From an uncultured Pseudomonadota bacterium (GTDB lineage Bacteria > Pseudomonadota > Gammaproteobacteria > Steroidobacterales > Steroidobacteraceae), in assembly GCA_903839465.1 (NCBI GenBank), contig CAIMCI010000339.1, forward strand, positions 1 through 38,180: a DNA stretch of 38,180 nucleotides, given 5' to 3'. Position 1 is the first letter of the stretch; every line of letters starts with the position of its first letter. The position numbers and the translations under genes are program-made. The notes below the pieces were generated by a model. It searched no databases. It was not told the origin of the DNA and saw only the letters and a list, made by a program, of their open reading frames with translations. Shown here piece by piece: positions 24,301 through 33,474 of this stretch.

Positions 24301-24349
24301 AGCGCCCGACGCCGGCACGCGCCGACCCTTGCCTATTGGCGGCGCGGCC

Positions 24350-24376
24350 CCAAACCGGCAGACTGCGTGGGTTTGG
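24350..24376 (+). other. Inverted repeat between slyX and the MttB-like gene
   Basis: CCAAACC (24350-24356) and GGTTTGG (24370-24376) pair perfectly, with a small inner GCAG/CTGC stem (24358-24361 / 24363-24366). It lies 50 bases after slyX and about 75 before the next start. It could end the slyX transcript or act in the leader of the next gene; no T-run is seen. Confidence 0.3.
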
Positions 24377-24449
24377 CAGGCGAATCGCGATCCGCCGTTC
24401 GCCGCGCCATCCCCATCGTCCAGATCCGCAGCGCGTAAGAGGTGCAACC

Positions 24450-26024
24450 GTGGCAGAGGCTCCCCATCCGGCACGTCGTCCCAGCGGCAGAGATTTGCGG
24501 CGCGCCCAGCGCGCGGCGCCGCTGCCGGACAACATCCGGCCGGTCTCGCCGGGACTCTCCTCGGGCAACTACCGACCGCTGACGGACGCTGCGGTCGAGA
24601 AAATCCACCAGACTGCACTGCGCCTGCTCGCCGAGGTCGGCCTCGCCGATGCGCCGCCGTCGGGTGTCGAGATCCTTACCCGCGCCGGCTGCACCGTGAG
24701 CGAGCACGGCCGGATGCTGTTCCCCCGCGCGCTGGTCGAGGACACGCTCGCCAAGGCCGGCCGCCACTTCGTGCTGCATGGCCAGGACAAGCGGTACGAC
24801 CTCGAACCGTGGGGCAAGAAGGTCCACTTCGGTACGGCCGGGGCCGCCGTCAACATGGTGGACAGCGACGGCAAGTACCGCGAGTCGCTGCTGACCGACC
24901 TCTACAACATCGGCCGCATCGTCGACGTGATGGAGCACATCCACTTCTTCCAGCGCGCCGTCGTGCCGCGCGACCTGCCCGATCCGTTCCAGATGGACTT
25001 CAACACCTGCTACGCCTCGGTCATGTCGACCACCAAGCACGTCGGCTCCAGCTGGGTCGACCCGAAGCACCTCGAAGCCTCGTTCGAGATGCTGCACATG
25101 ATCGCCGGCGGCGAGAAGCAGTGGCGCGAGCGTCCGTTCGTCAGCCAGTCGAACTGCTTCGTCGTGCCGCCCATGAAATTCGCGGTCGATGCCTGCCGCT
25201 GCCTGGAACTGGCCGTTACCGGTGGCATGCCCGTGCTGCTCCTGTCCGCCGGTCAGGCCGGTGCCACGGCGCCCGCGGCGCTGGCCGGTGCGCTTGCGCA
25301 GGAAGTCGCGGAGGTGCTGGCCGGCCTCGTCTACGTCAACGCCATCAAGCCGGGGCATCCGGCGATCTTCGGCACCTGGTGCTTCGTTTCCGACCTGCGC
25401 ACGGGCGCCATGTCGGGCGGCAGCCCCGAACAGGCGCTGCTGTCGGCGGCGGCCGGCCAGATGGCCCACTTCTATGACCTGACCGGCGGCACGGCCTCCG
25501 GCATGACCGACTCGAAGGTGCCGGACGGCCAGGCGGGGGCCGAGAAGGGCCTCAACCACGCGCTCGTCGGCAATGCGGGCGCGAACATGATCTACGAGGC
25601 CGCCGGCATGCACGCGAGCCTCCTCGGTTACAGCCTCGAGAGCCTCGTCATCGACAACGACATCATCGGCGCCGCGATGCGCACCATCAAAGGCATCGAC
25701 GTGTCGGACGAGAAGCTGTCCTTCGAGACGATCAAGGACGTGTGTATCAACGGGCCGGGCCACTACCTCGGCTCCGACCAGACGCTGCAGCTGATGCAGA
25801 CCGACTACCTCTATCCGTCGATCGGCGACCGCCGCAGCCCGAACGACTGGACCGAACGTGGCGCGACCGACATCGAGGAACGCGCCGCGGAGCGGGTCAA
25901 GGAAATCCTGGCGACTCACTACCCGAGCCACGTTCCCGAATCGATCGACGATGCCATCCGCGCCAAGTTCCCGGTGAAGCTGCCGAAGAGCGCGATGCGG
26001 GCGGGCGGCTCCAGCCAGTCCTGA
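24450..26024 (+). CDS. MttB-superfamily (trimethylamine/betaine-type) corrinoid methyltransferase, non-pyrrolysine
   Basis: 524 residues from the GTG at 24450, which has AGAGGTG six bases upstream; the longer frame before it is not protein-like. The whole length resembles the trimethylamine methyltransferase family: a TIM-barrel with LTDAAVEKIHQTALRLLAEVG, FGTAGAAVNMVD, TTKHVGSSWV, FVSQSNCFVVPPMKF, GQAGATAPAA and HPAIFGTWCFVSDLRTGA. There is no in-frame amber codon, so it does not use pyrrolysine and belongs with the glycine-betaine/quaternary-amine group (MtgB-like), whose members pass a methyl group to a corrinoid protein. No corrinoid protein or reductive activator is nearby. Substrate is unknown. 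A 9-bp hairpin follows. Confidence 0.85.
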   Translation: MAEAPHPARRPSGRDLRRAQRAAPLPDNIRPVSPGLSSGNYRPLTDAAVEKIHQTALRLLAEVGLADAPPSGVEILTRAGCTVSEHGRMLFPRALVEDTLAKAGRHFVLHGQDKRYDLEPWGKKVHFGTAGAAVNMVDSDGKYRESLLTDLYNIGRIVDVMEHIHFFQRAVVPRDLPDPFQMDFNTCYASVMSTTKHVGSSWVDPKHLEASFEMLHMIAGGEKQWRERPFVSQSNCFVVPPMKFAVDACRCLELAVTGGMPVLLLSAGQAGATAPAALAGALAQEVAEVLAGLVYVNAIKPGHPAIFGTWCFVSDLRTGAMSGGSPEQALLSAAAGQMAHFYDLTGGTASGMTDSKVPDGQAGAEKGLNHALVGNAGANMIYEAAGMHASLLGYSLESLVIDNDIIGAAMRTIKGIDVSDEKLSFETIKDVCINGPGHYLGSDQTLQLMQTDYLYPSIGDRRSPNDWTERGATDIEERAAERVKEILATHYPSHVPESIDDAIRAKFPVKLPKSAMRAGGSSQS

Positions 26025-26072
26025 TGCAGACGGGAGCGCGTCGGCCGGGGCGCGCTTCACGAAACTGAGCCT

Positions 26073-26097
26073 TGGCCGGAGCACGCCTCTCCGGCCA
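26073..26097 (+). terminator. Perfect 9-bp hairpin after the MttB-like gene
   Basis: TGGCCGGAG (26073-26081), 7-base loop, CTCCGGCCA (26089-26097), about 50 bases after the stop codon and 32 before the next gene. No T-run follows. It probably terminates or protects the upstream mRNA. Confidence 0.4.
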
Positions 26098-26128
26098 CTC
26101 CCCGGCCGTCAGTCCGGAGTATTCACGC

Positions 26129-27847
26129 TTGCGCCACCTCCTCGTTCTCGCCGCCGGACTCGTGTCCTTTGCGGTCGACGCCGCGCCCGCGGCCACGACG
26201 GTCTACGTCCACGGCCACATCTACACGGGCAACCGGGCGGCACCCTGGGCCGAGTCCATCGCGGTCGAAGGTGCCGCCATCGCCGCCGTCGGCAGCGACG
26301 CGGCACTCGCCCGCTACCGCCGCGGCGCCCGGGTCGTCGACCTCGAGGGGCGGACCGTGATCCCCGGACTCGTGGATGCGCACATGCACCTGCTGTTCGG
26401 CGCGCTGACGCTCGATGGCCTCAACCTGTCGACGCCCGAGCGCAGCCTGACGGCAGACCATGCCGACGAGTTCGTCGCTGCGCTCAGGAAGTTCGCCGAC
26501 CAGCATCCCGACCGGCGGGTCCTGATCGCACGCGGTGACTTCAGCACGGCACAGCCGACGGCACCGGACCGCGCCCTGCTCGACCGCGCGGTGCCCGACC
26601 GGCCGCTCGTCATCCACAACGCCTCGGAACACGCGGTCTGGGTCAACAGCAAGGCACTGGAGCTCGCCGGCATCACCGATGCGCCGGTCGCCGACGAGGT
26701 GGCCGAGCGCAACATCTTCCGCGATGCGAGCGGCCGCCCGGGGGGCGTACTGCTCGAGGCCGCGCAGGACCTGATCCACAACGCGGTCCTGAAGACCCTG
26801 TCGACCGAGGAAAAGCTGGCGCTCCTGCGCCGCGCGACCCACTACCTCAACGGCTACGGCATCACTAGCATCGTGAATGCCACCGGCAACCTGGCCGAGA
26901 TCGAGCTGTACGGCGCGCTCCGCGATCGCGGCGAACTCACGGTCCGGACCCGCACGGCATTTGGCTCCGTGTCGGTCCCGCACCGGCTGAGCCCCGAGTT
27001 CCTCGCCGACCTCGAGGCCGCGCGCAGCCGCTTCCACGATGACTGGGTGTCGGCCAATCTCGTGAAGTTCTTTGCCGACGGCAGTACCGGCTACGTGCCG
27101 CCGCTCGTGTACCGGCCGGCCGAGTACCGCGCGCTCGTGCTTGAGCTCGACAGCCGGGGTTTCCAGCTGATGACCCACGCGCAGCGCAGCGACTCGGTGC
27201 ACATGATCCTCGATGCCTACGAGAATGCGATTGCGAAGAACGGCGCACGCGAGCGGCGCCTCAGGATAGAGCACAGCTTCCTGATCCAGGACGCGGACAT
27301 CGACCGCTACGCGCGCCTCGGCGTCATCGCCGGCGTGCAGCCGGCCTTCTGCTGCAGCGAACTCGGCACGGGGTACGACGCTAAGGACCCGACCGTGTCC
27401 GACCGCTGGCGGACCCTGCTCGATCGGGGCGTCAGGCTCGCGTTCAGCAGCGACTGGCCGTGCATGTGGCCGCCGGATCCGTACTTCAACATCCAGCAGG
27501 CCGTCACCCGCCAGGCCTGGCGCTCGCCGGACACAGCCGGCATCGATGCCGGTGTCCTCGACGGCGCACGCAACGGCGGCGCCAAGCCGCTGGCCGGCAC
27601 CTACTACGGCAAGAACGAGGCAGTCACGGTGCGCGAGTCGGTCGATGCCTACACGCAGGGCGCGGCCTACGCCGCCTACGCCGATCGCCTCGTCGGCACC
27701 CTCGAAAAGGGCAAGGCCGCGGACCTCGTGGTGCTGTCCCAGGACCTGTTCACCGTACCGGCTGAGCAGATCGGCGACACCCGCGCCCTGCTCACGGTCG
27801 TGGGCGGACGTGTCGTCTTCGACGCGAAGGCCGAGAGCGCGCGCTGA
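26129..27847 (+). CDS. Exported amidohydrolase, YtcJ type
   Basis: 572 residues from a TTG at 26129; GGAG lies nine bases upstream and this start gives a textbook signal peptide (MRHLLVLAAGLVSFAVDAAPA), whereas the longer frame from 26072 would hide it. The amidohydrolase barrel has the metal-binding HMH of LVDAHMHLLFG (85-87), later histidines in LMTHAQRSD and IEHSFLIQ, and the final metal aspartate in FSSDWP. The N- and C-terminal parts (TVYVHGHIYTGN and GTLEKGKAADLVVL) form the composite beta sandwich. YtcJ-type enzymes hydrolyse N-acyl or N-formyl amides; the substrate is unknown. The signal peptide places it in the periplasm. Confidence 0.87.
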   Translation: MRHLLVLAAGLVSFAVDAAPAATTVYVHGHIYTGNRAAPWAESIAVEGAAIAAVGSDAALARYRRGARVVDLEGRTVIPGLVDAHMHLLFGALTLDGLNLSTPERSLTADHADEFVAALRKFADQHPDRRVLIARGDFSTAQPTAPDRALLDRAVPDRPLVIHNASEHAVWVNSKALELAGITDAPVADEVAERNIFRDASGRPGGVLLEAAQDLIHNAVLKTLSTEEKLALLRRATHYLNGYGITSIVNATGNLAEIELYGALRDRGELTVRTRTAFGSVSVPHRLSPEFLADLEAARSRFHDDWVSANLVKFFADGSTGYVPPLVYRPAEYRALVLELDSRGFQLMTHAQRSDSVHMILDAYENAIAKNGARERRLRIEHSFLIQDADIDRYARLGVIAGVQPAFCCSELGTGYDAKDPTVSDRWRTLLDRGVRLAFSSDWPCMWPPDPYFNIQQAVTRQAWRSPDTAGIDAGVLDGARNGGAKPLAGTYYGKNEAVTVRESVDAYTQGAAYAAYADRLVGTLEKGKAADLVVLSQDLFTVPAEQIGDTRALLTVVGGRVVFDAKAESAR

Positions 27848-28122: not shown

Positions 28123-28812
28123 ATGCCGTCAAGAGAACCCGATCCGATAGGCCTCCCGGCAGCGCCCGTGGATTGCTCCCCCAGTGGCGACTCACCGGAG
28201 CAGATCACCCGGCTGCTGGTTGCCTGGAGCGACGGCAGTGGCGGCGCGCTGGAGGAACTGGCGCCCATCGTCTACGCGGAGCTCCGGCGGATGGCCGCCC
28301 GCCACCTGCGGCGCGAATCGGCGGCCAATACCCTGCCGCCCACCGGCCTCGTTCACGAGGCGTTTATCCGACTGATCGGCCAGAAGCACACCCGCTGGCA
28401 GAGCCGCGCGCACTTCTTTTCCCTCGCCTCCAAGCTGATGCGCCGCATCCTCGTGGACCAGGCCCGCGCGCGCCTTGCCGCGAAGCGCGGCGACGGCATC
28501 CCGAATGTCAGCCTCGACCAGGTCCAGCCGCACGCGACGCTCGAGGGTGGTGACGGGGGTGCTTTTCTCGAGCGCTACGAACTGGACGCGGGGCGCGATG
28601 CAGGCGTCGACCTGATGAGCATCGACGCGGCCCTAACCCGCCTGGAGACGCTCGACGCCAGGCAGTCGCAGATCGTCGAGCTGCGTTTTTTTGGCGGGCT
28701 GACGGTCGAGGAAACGGCAGAGTCGCTCCAGATCAGCGAGGCAACCGTCAAGCGGGACTGGACCATGGCCAAGGCCTGGCTCGCCCGGGAACTCGCCGCC
28801 CACCGACCTTAA
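28123..28812 (+). CDS. ECF sigma factor, X6 type
   Basis: 229 residues, ATG 28123. Region 2 is seen as LEELAPIVYAELRRMAARHL with the following TGLVHEAFIRLIG and SRAHFFSLASKLMRRILVDQAR; region 4 has the helix-turn-helix LTVEETAESLQISEATVKRDW and the C-terminal AKAWLARELA. The spacing and the LVHEAF and ASKLMRRILVD segments mark the Sig-70 X6 group, whose members are usually encoded beside large Ser/Thr kinases with TPR repeats. No zinc-binding anti-sigma gene follows. The kinase at 29338-32223 is the likely partner. Target promoters are unknown. Confidence 0.9.
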   Translation: MPSREPDPIGLPAAPVDCSPSGDSPEQITRLLVAWSDGSGGALEELAPIVYAELRRMAARHLRRESAANTLPPTGLVHEAFIRLIGQKHTRWQSRAHFFSLASKLMRRILVDQARARLAAKRGDGIPNVSLDQVQPHATLEGGDGGAFLERYELDAGRDAGVDLMSIDAALTRLETLDARQSQIVELRFFGGLTVEETAESLQISEATVKRDWTMAKAWLARELAAHRP

Positions 28813-28816
28813 GCCC

Positions 28817-28868
28817 GGACCGGATGCCGGTCCCCGGGGCAGCCGTTGCCCCGCCGTGAGCCCTTTTT
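28817..28868 (+). terminator. Tandem hairpins after the sigma factor gene
   Basis: GGACCGG/CCGGTCC with ATG loop (28817-28833) and GGGGCA/TGCCCC with GCCGT loop (28836-28852), then CCCTTTTTCC with five T from 28864. The second stem and the T-run are 11 bases apart, which is long for an intrinsic terminator, but the arrangement suggests transcript ending before the UrcA gene. Confidence 0.45.
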
Positions 28869-28985
28869 CCCCTGCTCCCCGCGTTAGCTGGTAGAGGCGC
28901 GCAGGTCGGCGACCCCGTTCGGGGCCCCCGCCACCTGTCGGGCCTGAATGCACCTACCGCACAGGCTGGAAACAGGGGAACGACG

Positions 28986-29366
28986 ATGCGCCACACAAAC
29001 CGTGATCCGATCCATCATCCGTACGCCAGGACTCTCGCCCTGCTCGCTGCAGGGGTACTGCTGCCCGCCCTGACCCTGGCGGACCCGACCGGCCGGAAGG
29101 AGCCGGAAATGAAAACCGCCGCCGTTTCCGTCGCCGATCTCGATCTCACGACCGAGGCCGGCGCCCGGATCGCCCACGAGAGAATCTCGGCCGCCGCCTG
29201 GAAACTCTGCAGCCGGCTGGAGAATTCGCGGCAGGTGGACCACCGCGAGACGACGAACGACTGCTACCGCGACGCGGTTGCCGCCGCGTGGGCGCGGATG
29301 ACGCCCCCCGCGCAGGTCGCCGGCACGGGCGCCCCGGCTAAGGAGCCGGGTGATTCGAAGCGCTGA
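28986..29366 (+). CDS. UrcA-family secreted protein
   Basis: 126 residues, ATG 28986 with GGGGA upstream. A signal peptide is likely (TLALLAAGVLLPALTLA then DPTG). The mature part has the UrcA core: VSVADLDLTTEAGARIAHERISAAAWKLC followed by NDCYRDAVAAAW, giving two conserved cysteines about 30 residues apart that probably form a disulfide. UrcA proteins are small periplasmic proteins of unknown role in proteobacteria. It lies between the sigma factor and the kinase; its last 29 bases overlap the kinase 3-prime end on the other strand. Confidence 0.85.
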   Translation: MRHTNRDPIHHPYARTLALLAAGVLLPALTLADPTGRKEPEMKTAAVSVADLDLTTEAGARIAHERISAAAWKLCSRLENSRQVDHRETTNDCYRDAVAAAWARMTPPAQVAGTGAPAKEPGDSKR

Positions 29367-32223
29367 GGCTGACGCCGAGCCTGGCGAGTTCCGTCTCGCA
29401 GCGGGCGAGCAGGTCGCGCGGGCGCGACGGCCCCTCCGTGGCAAAGCCGCTCATGTTGAACCGGCCGGGATTGGGCGCCTTGCGCCAGATCTCGGCCGCC
29501 TGGAGGAACCGGGCCCGCGCCGCCTCCAGCCGGGCGATACTTGCCGATCCCGCCTCGCCGGGGGACGCCTTGCCCTGCAACAGGAGTTCGCCGAGGCCCG
29601 TGTACGTGTCGGCGGTCGCGAAGACGACTTCCACCATCGGTTGCGGTGCGGCGGCTAGCGGCTCGAGGATCGCGAGCGCCGCCGCATAACGCCGCCGGGC
29701 ACCCTCGTGGTCGCCCTGCTTTGCGAGCACGTCCCCGACCTTGGAATCGATCGCCGCGCGGGCCGCCGTGGCCTGGGCGTCCCCGTCGCCGACCGCGGCC
29801 AACAGGCTCGCGGCACGATGATAGTCGGCGAGACTCGCCGCGAACTGGCCCTCGTTGAACAGCAGCTGCGCCCGCAGTACGTAGTCCAGTGGCAGGACGC
29901 GGCCTGCAAACGAGTTCGGATCCGCCCTGTGCTCGCGCTCAAGGCCGCTGATCGCGGCGCCGAGGGCGGACAGACCGTCCGCATGGCGGCCGGCCCGGCT
30001 GACGGCCACGCCGAGCAACGCCTGGTCGGTGTACAGATCGATCCGGGCCAAAGCGTCCTCGCGATCCGCGACAACCGACTGCTTTTCGACGTCGACTGCA
30101 GATTCGTAGTAGCGGATCGCGGAACCGGCATCGTCGTCGATCATCGCCACGGTGCCCATTCGTTCAAATATCGTCACCGCCAGATGGCGCGCTTCCGGAT
30201 GCAGGCGATCGATGCCGACGCCCTCGATCCAGTTCGCGGAGTCGGTGTACAGACGCATTGCCTCGCCACGCTCGCCCTTTCTCACAAAGTCATCGGCAAG
30301 ATTGGTCGAGATCGCCAGCACCGACAGCCGATCGGGCTCGCTGTCCGGCCGGAGCTGCGCCAGGCGCTGCGCCTCGGCGAGCGCCTTGCGGTGGTTCCCG
30401 ATGGCCCCATCGATGTCACCCAGACTCGCCGAGGAGCCGGTTCCTCCCTGAATGGTGCCCATCATTTCGTGGACCGAGCTTGAAACGTCAAGAACGTCCG
30501 GGTCTGCCGGTCGCTTCGCGGCCTGGGCTTCGACGATTGCCAGCGCCCTCTTCTCATAAACGAAGGCCGCCTTTGGGTCGCTGAAACTGGCAAGTTCCAG
30601 CGTCGCGTTCAGGTCGAGGATCTTCGCCAGCGCCAGCTGGTCCTCGAGGCTCTCGGGGCTGTGAGCCGCCACGGATTCACGGATCGCGAGCGCTTTCTGC
30701 AGGCTGCGCCGGGCCCCGTCGGTATCGCCGAGGTTACGCTGCACCGCGCCACCCTGGACCGCGCCGAGCTTGCGGTAACCAGCCGCGAGTTCCCGCTGCA
30801 GCGACAGGTCCCCTTTCGCTTCACCGGCCAGCGTATCCAGATACTGGAGGGCGCGATCCACCAGCAGCTTTCGGGCGGCCGTGGAACCCGGCAGCGGTTC
30901 GATGGCTGCCTCAAGATCGAAGATCAGAGTCTTGGCGAGCCCGCGCACTTCGTTGAAACGCCGCTCGGCCCGCTGCCGCTCGGCGCGCGCAACCCGGTCC
31001 TCGGCGACGATCGCAACGACGCCGGCCAGCAGCATGACCGTGGCCACGCCCGTCGCGACGACCCCGACCCGATGGCGCCGGATGAACTTGCCCGTCCGGT
31101 ACCCCCAGGTATCGCGCGCCGCGCTGACCGTCAGTCCGTCGAGGTGCCGGCGGATGTCCTGCGCGAGGAGCGCAACCGAGGCGTAGCGGCGTTCCGGCTC
31201 CTTGCGCAGCGCCATGAGGGCGATGCTGTCGAGATCGCCGGCGAGTTGCCGCCGGTCAGCCGACGTCCGGGTGTCGCCGGGACCCCGGGCAGCGGCGGTA
31301 CTCGGCCGCGGCGGCTCCGTGTCGCAGACGTCCTTCGCGAGCGCATAGGGCTCGGCGGCCGTCGAGCGGTAGGGACTGCGGCCGCACAGGAGCCGGAACA
31401 GGATGACGCCCAGCGAATACACGTCGCTCGCCGTCGTGATCGGCTCGCCGCGTATCTGCTCGGGACTCGAGTACTCCGGCGTCATGGCCCACATCGAGGC
31501 GGCTTCCGCCGCCTGGCTCGCCTCGGTGTCGAGCACCTTGGCGATGCCAAAGTCCAGGAGCTTCGGCACGCCGTCGCGGGTCACCAGGATATTGGCCGGC
31601 TTCAGGTCACGGTGCACGGTCAGGTTCTGGTGCGCATACTGCACGGCCGAGCAGACGTCGCAGAACAGTCTGAGCCGATCCCTGACCGACAACGCGCGCG
31701 ATTCGCAGTACCGGTCGATCGGCTCACCGTCGACCAATTGCATGATGAAGTAAGGCTGGCCGTCGGCCGTCAGCCCCGCATCGAGCAGCCGCGCGATGTT
31801 GGGGTGATCGAGCCTGGCGAGGATCTGCCGTTCCGCCGTGAACCGGGCGAGCGTCAGCGCGCCCCGCAGGCCGCGCCGGACCAGCTTGATCGCGACCTCC
31901 TGCTGGTACTGGTTGTCGGCGCGGACAGCCCGGTAGACCTCGCCCATGCCGCCGGCGCCGAGTATGGCAACGATCTCGTACGCACCCAGCCGCTGCCCGA
32001 TCATCTGTTCGGGCGTTGGTCCGACCATCGCCTGCTCGACGGCCGGCTGCTCCATGAACCGACTCGCTTCGGCCGCGGACTCGAGCAGGGACTCGACCTC
32101 CGCGCGCACGCCGGGGGCGTCGGCGCACTCTTGCGCCAGGAGTTCGGCCCGCGCCGCAGAGTCGAGGCTGAGGCAGGCAGCGAACAGCGTCTTCGCGCGC
32201 TGCCAGTCCGTGGCGCTTTGCAT
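29338..32223 (-). CDS. Transmembrane Ser/Thr protein kinase with TPR-like C-terminal half
   Basis: 961 residues from the ATG at 32223, chosen for its AGGGA site; a longer frame adds 20 residues. After an N-terminal helical segment (1-75) typical of kinases encoded with X6 sigma factors, the Hanks kinase domain (about 82-362) has GAGGMGEVY (89-97), VAIK (Lys113), HRDLKPANIL (Asp206), DFG (224-226) and PEYSSPEQ. A single transmembrane helix (386-407, VGVVATGVATVMLLAGVVAIV) divides it from about 550 residues of helical repeats, including GDTDGARRSLQKALAI and GDIDGAIGNHRKALAEAQ, that look like TPRs and would lie in the periplasm. It converges on the UrcA gene and sigma factor. The likely role is to phosphorylate the sigma factor or its partner; this is inferred from known pairs. 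Confidence 0.92.
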   Translation of the reverse strand: MQSATDWQRAKTLFAACLSLDSAARAELLAQECADAPGVRAEVESLLESAAEASRFMEQPAVEQAMVGPTPEQMIGQRLGAYEIVAILGAGGMGEVYRAVRADNQYQQEVAIKLVRRGLRGALTLARFTAERQILARLDHPNIARLLDAGLTADGQPYFIMQLVDGEPIDRYCESRALSVRDRLRLFCDVCSAVQYAHQNLTVHRDLKPANILVTRDGVPKLLDFGIAKVLDTEASQAAEAASMWAMTPEYSSPEQIRGEPITTASDVYSLGVILFRLLCGRSPYRSTAAEPYALAKDVCDTEPPRPSTAAARGPGDTRTSADRRQLAGDLDSIALMALRKEPERRYASVALLAQDIRRHLDGLTVSAARDTWGYRTGKFIRRHRVGVVATGVATVMLLAGVVAIVAEDRVARAERQRAERRFNEVRGLAKTLIFDLEAAIEPLPGSTAARKLLVDRALQYLDTLAGEAKGDLSLQRELAAGYRKLGAVQGGAVQRNLGDTDGARRSLQKALAIRESVAAHSPESLEDQLALAKILDLNATLELASFSDPKAAFVYEKRALAIVEAQAAKRPADPDVLDVSSSVHEMMGTIQGGTGSSASLGDIDGAIGNHRKALAEAQRLAQLRPDSEPDRLSVLAISTNLADDFVRKGERGEAMRLYTDSANWIEGVGIDRLHPEARHLAVTIFERMGTVAMIDDDAGSAIRYYESAVDVEKQSVVADREDALARIDLYTDQALLGVAVSRAGRHADGLSALGAAISGLEREHRADPNSFAGRVLPLDYVLRAQLLFNEGQFAASLADYHRAASLLAAVGDGDAQATAARAAIDSKVGDVLAKQGDHEGARRRYAAALAILEPLAAAPQPMVEVVFATADTYTGLGELLLQGKASPGEAGSASIARLEAARARFLQAAEIWRKAPNPGRFNMSGFATEGPSRPRDLLARCETELARLGVSLSASNHPAP

Positions 32224-33397: not shown

Positions 33398-33474
33398 TGG
33401 TGGCTAGGGGGGGAATCGAACCCCCGACCCCGGGGTTATGAATCCCGTGCTCTAACCGTCTGAGCTACCTAGCC
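33398..33474 (-). tRNA. tRNA-Met (CAT anticodon), elongator type
   Basis: 77 bases including an encoded CCA. The acceptor stem pairs GGCTAGG with CCTAGCC; the D arm is GCTCAGACGGTTAGAGC; the anticodon CAT is at 33440-33438; the T arm has GGGGG-TTCGATT-CCCCC. The start is like that of E. coli elongator tRNA-Met rather than the initiator (which begins CGCGGGG) or lysidine tRNA-Ile. In the anticodon stem the innermost pair is A31 with C39, a mismatch. Confidence 0.95.

Follow-up and report, generated by a model that had tools for sequence, protein, structure and literature searches.

A UrcA family gene between an EcfK-like sigma factor gene and a PknS-like kinase gene in a Steroidobacteraceae genome: a possible envelope output of the pair

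The closest described counterparts of the genes reported here are two pairs of an extracytoplasmic function (ECF) sigma factor and a Ser/Thr kinase, both of group ECF43: EcfK/PknS of Xanthomonas citri and EcfP/PknT of Vibrio parahaemolyticus. As far as the accessible portions of the two reports go, ECF43 factors have uncharged residues in place of the DAED acid pair of the sigma2.2 motif, which carries acidic residues in other ECF factors, together with a Thr at the third place (QTTA consensus) and an adjoining Ser/Thr kinase gene without an anti-sigma gene (PMC8999054, PMC13147305). The same portions describe phosphorylation of the residue at this motif place by the partner kinase in both EcfP and EcfK, as well as further phosphosites in the linker of EcfK, the Thr51Ala form of which was still functional (PMC13147305). 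Meanwhile, the UrcA family protein of Caulobacter crescentus (CC3302) appears in the accessible part of its report as a periplasmic protein of unknown function and a regulated output of UzcRS, a membrane sensor system (PMC8963506). Here we describe a locus that joins these families, at positions 28123-32223 of a contig from an uncultured Pseudomonadota bacterium of the family Steroidobacteraceae (GCA_903839465.1, contig CAIMCI010000339.1; the whole stretch of 38,180 nucleotides that was analysed is called the window). An ECF sigma factor gene and a transmembrane kinase gene face each other, and a urcA gene lies between them. In the genomes sampled, urcA neighbourhoods are non-random, and we consider the likeliest reading, at somewhat under an even chance, to be that UrcA is a local envelope output of a neighbouring sensor, here the sigma/kinase pair, in a pathway of the EcfK/PknS type.

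The features of the locus are as follows.

28123-28812, plus strand: ECF sigma factor of TIGR02999/PF07638, EcfK/EcfP-like, from family profiles
28342-28344, plus strand: codon for Thr74 of the sigma factor, in the PPTG motif of sigma2.2, at the place where EcfP and EcfK are phosphorylated (alignment column; phosphosite from the accessible parts of PMC8999054 and PMC13147305, matched by motif rather than by alignment to EcfK or EcfP)
28986-29366, plus strand: UrcA family protein with a signal-peptide-like N-terminus, Cys75 and Cys93, from a family profile
29338-32223, minus strand: PknS-like transmembrane Ser/Thr kinase, from family profiles and a structure-database match
31354-31980, minus strand: kinase domain, residues 82-290, from the Pkinase match
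31006-31062, minus strand: predicted membrane helix of the kinase, residues 388-406, from hydrophobicity
29653-30882, minus strand: predicted periplasmic helical-repeat region of the kinase, tetratricopeptide repeat (TPR)-like, residues about 448-857, from the TPR match and a model
29338-29366, unstranded: 29 bp over which urcA and the kinase gene overlap at their 3' ends, from open reading frame (ORF) coordinates

The first-pass annotation of the window, made from the letters and their translations, had named an X6-type ECF sigma factor, a two-cysteine UrcA and a transmembrane kinase whose gene, on the other strand, overlaps the end of urcA, and the profiles and coordinates bear this out: urcA (plus strand) and the kinase gene (minus strand) are convergent and overlap by 29 bp at their 3' ends. 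That the sigma factor has no anti-sigma gene also agrees with our scan, in which no anti-sigma family was found among eight window proteins (the sigma factor, UrcA, the kinase and five neighbours). The five neighbours likewise gave no match to a type VI secretion system family.

The sigma factor has 229 amino acids and scores 204.2 bits against TIGR02999 (Sig-70_X6; cut-off 126.15) and 174.2 bits against PF07638, families that are broader than the published ECF group models. Its sigma2.2 motif reads PPTG at residues 72-75, with uncharged residues where the DAED acid pair would stand and Thr74 at the third place, a Thr that is kept in 139 of 143 aligned sigma factor rows. With the adjoining kinase gene and no anti-sigma gene, the locus thus displays all three of the ECF43 features given above. 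ECF43 itself is reportedly the subject of one main paper, Iyer et al. 2020. The likeness to EcfK/PknS extends to a Thr at the sigma2.2 phosphosite and to sigma factor and kinase being encoded by neighbouring genes, while the motif differs, being PPTG here and QATE in the accessible description of EcfK (PMC13147305). EcfP, which is phospho-activated, has its Thr at the same motif place (STTA), again as far as the accessible text shows (PMC8999054, PMC13147305).

The kinase has 961 amino acids when read from its ATG; the frame is open as well from a TTG start 60 bp further upstream. Pkinase (residues 82-290) and TPR_12 (783-854) both match above the Pfam cut-offs, and all six of the catalytic motifs looked for are present. 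Among solved structures PknS matches best (9EED, E 1e-59 over residues 3-362), and it is also first by fold, so that both the catalytic motifs and homology across the N-terminal extension and kinase domain place this protein with the PknS-like kinases. It has one hydrophobic helix (residues 388-406) followed by a long helical C-terminus, for which the model gives low to moderate confidence, below 50 for much of the stretch after residue 720. The order of an N-terminal extension, a Hanks kinase domain, one transmembrane helix and TPRs, here predicted to be periplasmic, is that of PknS in the accessible text (PMC13147305, PMC8999054). The C-terminal TPR part should be periplasmic, since the kinase domain must be cytoplasmic and a single helix separates the two. 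Among kinase frames of at least 700 amino acids in the related loci described below, 114 of 122 had exactly one hydrophobic helix after residue 300, and of these 114 an excess of Lys and Arg before the helix was found in 85 and fewer before it in 7. Around the helix of the window kinase these charges are equal (5 and 5), so that its predicted topology is based on there being one helix and a kinase domain that must be cytoplasmic. The helical-repeat region that had been placed outside the membrane from the translation thus has its single helix and its TPR match; its side of the membrane stays a prediction.

To compare the locus with its relatives, we collected 140 of 145 other matches to the sigma factor from 217 genomes of the same family (E up to 1e-20; the five left out were the weakest by E-value), giving 141 loci with the window. 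Many of the fetched stretches end at contig ends, and a gene reported as not found was not within the stretch examined. A kinase gene was present at 136 of the 141 sigma loci, at 128 of them within 1 kb; in the remaining five a contig end comes within 1 kb of the sigma factor gene. The eight kinases found beyond 1 kb include one, at L227, that scores only 44 bits. The commonest layout is sigma factor then kinase on the same strand (114 loci within 1 kb and six further off). The convergent layout, that of the window, occurs at nine loci, and it is here that the window departs from EcfK/PknS, its kinase and sigma factor genes being convergent with urcA between them. The sigma factor and kinase are thus an ordinary pair of the EcfK/PknS kind, well supported as a signalling unit, and the earlier view of the pair as a known signalling theme is borne out. 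To the sigma factors for which activation by direct phosphorylation is proposed, the window adds one with an unusual layout. The host genome has a second convergent X6 sigma/kinase pair (L095, contig C48), in which the sigma factor is cut by the contig end and the 3.9-kb stretch shows no urcA.

UrcA has 126 amino acids and scores 61 bits against TIGR04433 (curated cut-off 25), with no Pfam match. Its hydrophobic N-terminal stretch (residues 14-32) suggests that it is probably a small secreted or periplasmic protein, as the first-pass annotation held, and an earlier paper, in its accessible part, lists an UrcA family protein with a signal peptide and no known function among released proteins. 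The two cysteines already pointed out there, Cys75 and Cys93, are both present in 67 of the 70 rows aligned, a set in which the same gene sometimes appears twice; this is a feature seen here rather than one taken from the family definition. They probably form a disulfide. A single-sequence model (mean pLDDT 61.9) has helices at 57-81 and 90-105 with one cysteine in each, from which we would guess at a disulfide-closed helical hairpin, the model being of low confidence. Structure comparison of the model gave nothing at E below 1 (best 1.7), and no solved sequence relative was found at E up to 1.

A urcA gene lies within 1 kb of the sigma factor gene at five of the 141 loci (the window, L174, L204, L176 and L230), against 0.24 expected, a Poisson estimate from the UrcA genes per genome that ignores relatedness and may be too low, as the counts come from the 150 matches listed with at most 22 candidates scored per genome. 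The corresponding Poisson P is 6e-6 for five independent cases and 0.002 if only three are independent. Co-occurrence of UrcA with sigma/kinase pairs, which had been put forward as a check, is therefore present, and a further sigma/urcA pair was found from the UrcA side, on contig G004:C35. Its UrcA is the best match to the window UrcA among the 217 genomes (40% identity), and no kinase was found on this 3.7-kb contig. In a sample of 59 relatives' genomes compared by hand, urcA and an X6 sigma factor gene adjoin only in G000 and G004. At three further loci (L223, L135 and L166) urcA lies 1-9.5 kb from the sigma factor gene, and for the remaining 133 the stretch examined showed no urcA.

The association is accompanied by a varied gene order. 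At L174 sigma factor, urcA and kinase are all on one strand; at L204, L176 and L230 urcA is divergent from the sigma-kinase genes. The divergent layouts (L204, L176, L230, L092 and L094) are those of a regulator and its target, and the layouts in the window's family fit UrcA as an output somewhat better than as a partner. A separate observation at L174 is a short frame in the sigma-urcA gap, between 10061 and 10594, that by eye resembles the N-terminal part of the kinase, as if from a partial duplication.

UrcA had been proposed at first as a possible third, extracytoplasmic member of the sigma/kinase block. A fixed third member is not supported: no urcA was found within 1 kb at 136 of the 141 loci, including the loci of the twelve nearest sigma factor relatives by rank (L096-L107), and what stands is the excess of five loci over the expectation. 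In the narrower form of this idea, UrcA would bind the kinase's TPR part in the periplasm, as a ligand or modulator, and so control how active the kinase is. Both are predicted to share a compartment, and TPRs occur in two kinds of urcA neighbour, the PknS-like kinase and a regulator of the host with a winged helix, a membrane helix and TPRs (contig C23, described below). However, the 136 loci where urcA was not found within 1 kb count against such a role, as does the strongest of the urcA links, that to LytS-type kinases, of which the one scanned alone gave no TPR match. We therefore hold a ligand role to be quite improbable.

Another explanation is that urcA is a bystander, inserted, along with an inversion of the kinase gene, into an ordinary sigma/kinase pair and under its own regulation. 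Eleven of the twelve nearest relatives have adjoining sigma factor and kinase genes (the twelfth, L101, runs into a contig end) and none was found to have urcA beside them, eight of the nine convergent sigma/kinase loci have no urcA within 1 kb, and the three genes of the window show no common promoter motif (see below). This account is at odds with the five loci against 0.24 expected, and also with the enrichment of urcA beside other membrane regulators, and we regard it as rather unlikely, though a real contender.

The host genome itself has three urcA genes, and the two besides that of the window also adjoin membrane regulators. A LytS-type histidine kinase and a LytTR response regulator come after the second on its own strand, and the third (contig C23) is divergent to the gene of a regulator that combines a winged helix with one membrane helix and TPRs. 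We took the best matches to the window UrcA, one per genome, as a family sample of 30 loci, and nine of these have a membrane regulator or an X6 sigma factor within 1.5 kb (five winged-helix regulators with a transmembrane helix, two LytS and two X6 sigma factors); of 284 control windows, each of 3.3 kb, 4 have such a regulator. The controls come from the flanks of sigma loci only and keep at least 1 kb clear of every sigma, kinase or UrcA gene found, which means that X6 sigma factors cannot be expected in them and that the comparison of 9/30 with 4/284 is biased toward a link; the fairer contrast, with the two sigma loci (window and G004) dropped, is 7/28 against 4/284 (Fisher P 6e-6). The regulator categories were picked after the host's own urcA neighbours and the Pfam tallies had been seen, and the winged-helix profile was built from proteins of UrcA loci. 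With single seeds instead (the host's other two urcA loci and the window sigma factor), the counts are 9/30 in the family, 7/28 in the phylum and 3/284 in the controls.

Across the phylum, 8 of 28 UrcA rows have such a regulator: seven have LytS with a response regulator (two of these being one place) and one a winged-helix regulator with a transmembrane helix. The 28 rows represent 25 places, three pairs being tandem urcA genes. ORF set A1 holds only ORFs chosen by length and codon-position G+C, and Pfam confirmed LytTR domains in five members of set A2, which lacks one chosen ORF of L287 and all those of L288, L292 and L293. Compared by hand, the phylum sample, counting the host genome, has 32 LytS-type kinases, 7 of them no more than 1.3 kb from a urcA gene, against 0.08 expected. 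A group from another family of the same phylum, not listed as the same class (f57; 47 genomes, 46 genera), has 88 UrcA genes in 39 genomes and 91 LytS-type kinases. It holds 27 urcA-LytS pairs within 3 kb, one in each of 27 of the 39 urcA-bearing genomes and all convergent, and seven further urcA-kinase pairs at 3-30 kb. The check for the response regulator that separates urcA from the LytS-type kinase covered six places, all in the phylum sample.

The link of urcA to membrane signalling genes is thus wider than the first-pass annotation could see. These wider neighbourhoods might owe nothing to function and come instead from inherited gene order, or from a tendency of signalling and envelope genes to cluster in general, an account that overlaps with the bystander explanation. 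The 27 pairs of f57 share a single layout, perhaps inherited from one common ancestor; in addition, the categories were chosen after the neighbourhoods were seen and the controls are from sigma-locus flanks only. Against this, the regulator types are three and unrelated, their layouts vary, and they occur in different families and even together on one genome; the f57 arrangement is kept in 27 of 39 urcA-bearing genomes. We judge this account unlikely. It is also conceivable, if quite doubtful, that the UrcA family provides interchangeable periplasmic accessories for three unrelated membrane systems (sigma/kinase, LytS/LytTR and winged-helix-transmembrane-TPR), tuning the sensor or reporting the redox or metal state of the envelope.

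In the reading that we prefer, with UrcA as an output of the sigma/kinase pair, the kinase would sense an envelope signal through its periplasmic TPR part and phosphorylate the sigma factor through its cytoplasmic domain, with Thr74 in sigma2.2 as the prime candidate. The phosphate would supply the negative charge that the sigma factor lacks for binding RNA polymerase, and the phosphorylated sigma factor may then transcribe a regulon that possibly includes the adjoining urcA. The first of these steps are modelled on close relatives studied by others, while the idea that the sigma factor drives urcA draws on gene neighbourhood and the Caulobacter precedent. The precedent agrees in family, predicted compartment and control by a membrane sensor system; it differs in that urcA is there the output of a two-component system responsive to uranium, zinc and copper and here adjoins an ECF sigma/kinase pair, in so far as the accessible part of that report describes it (PMC8963506). 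No account linking UrcA to these signalling-gene neighbourhoods was found in the open-access literature searched, and the EcfK study (PMC13147305) does not contain the word UrcA. Since UrcA is a family of unknown function, its recurrence beside defined sensors offers a direct test of what controls UrcA or what UrcA controls.

Several observations weigh against an output role. No urcA was found beside any of the twelve nearest sigma factor relatives. The five other urcA-linked sigma factors sit in a 42-row group that does not include the window sigma factor, and across the phylum, outside the window's family, an X6 sigma factor adjoins urcA at none of 28 loci; in 21 other urcA-bearing genomes of the phylum, compared by hand, three have an X6 sigma factor and none has it next to urcA. 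A quick sigma factor tree with G004:C35 added needs five changes of the urcA label, the program warning of long branches, and the separate origins of these neighbourhoods are not firm, as the well-supported branches alone are compatible with one origin. For this reason we put the output role somewhat below even odds. When all signalling profiles are counted, including response regulators and kinases, the contrast with the controls shrinks to 10/30 against 20/284 (P 1e-4), and the convergent urcA/LytS layout is neither an operon nor a shared promoter.

The upstream and intergenic sequences of the window point the same way. No promoter motif common to the sigma factor, urcA and kinase upstream regions was found. 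Any read-through from the sigma factor gene into urcA would have to pass two GC-rich hairpins in the 173-bp gap between them, although the terminator scan scored no terminator there. The longest word common to the urcA and sigma factor upstream regions has 8 bases, and a word of 11 bases is common with the upstream region of the kinase gene, which is nothing out of the ordinary (168 of 3000 random draws). We dropped a motif shared by the sigma factor and urcA promoters as a candidate, the words common to the three upstream regions of the window being no more than chance. A promoter motif sought in 140 sigma factor upstream regions was likewise abandoned, bipartite and 7-mer enrichment giving no clear promoter.

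Other features of the window lie outside the three genes. Directly upstream of the sigma factor gene is an Amidohydro_3 gene (26072-27847). The C-terminus of an Amidohydro_3 protein is also found beside the sigma/urcA pair of G004:C35 (L092 2-274; 46% over 67 amino acids). An amidohydrolase was considered as a conserved third neighbour and rejected, as only the G004 place and L238 match among the fetched loci outside the window. Further upstream, a frame for an MttB-family methyltransferase (24336-26021) runs without an in-frame stop and has a PYLIS_3 match at 25503-25602 (39.2 bits, cut-off 38); because of the absence of such a stop, the match probably reflects protein-coding sequence rather than pyrrolysine use. 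Finally, a tRNA-Met gene lies on the minus strand at 33398-33474.

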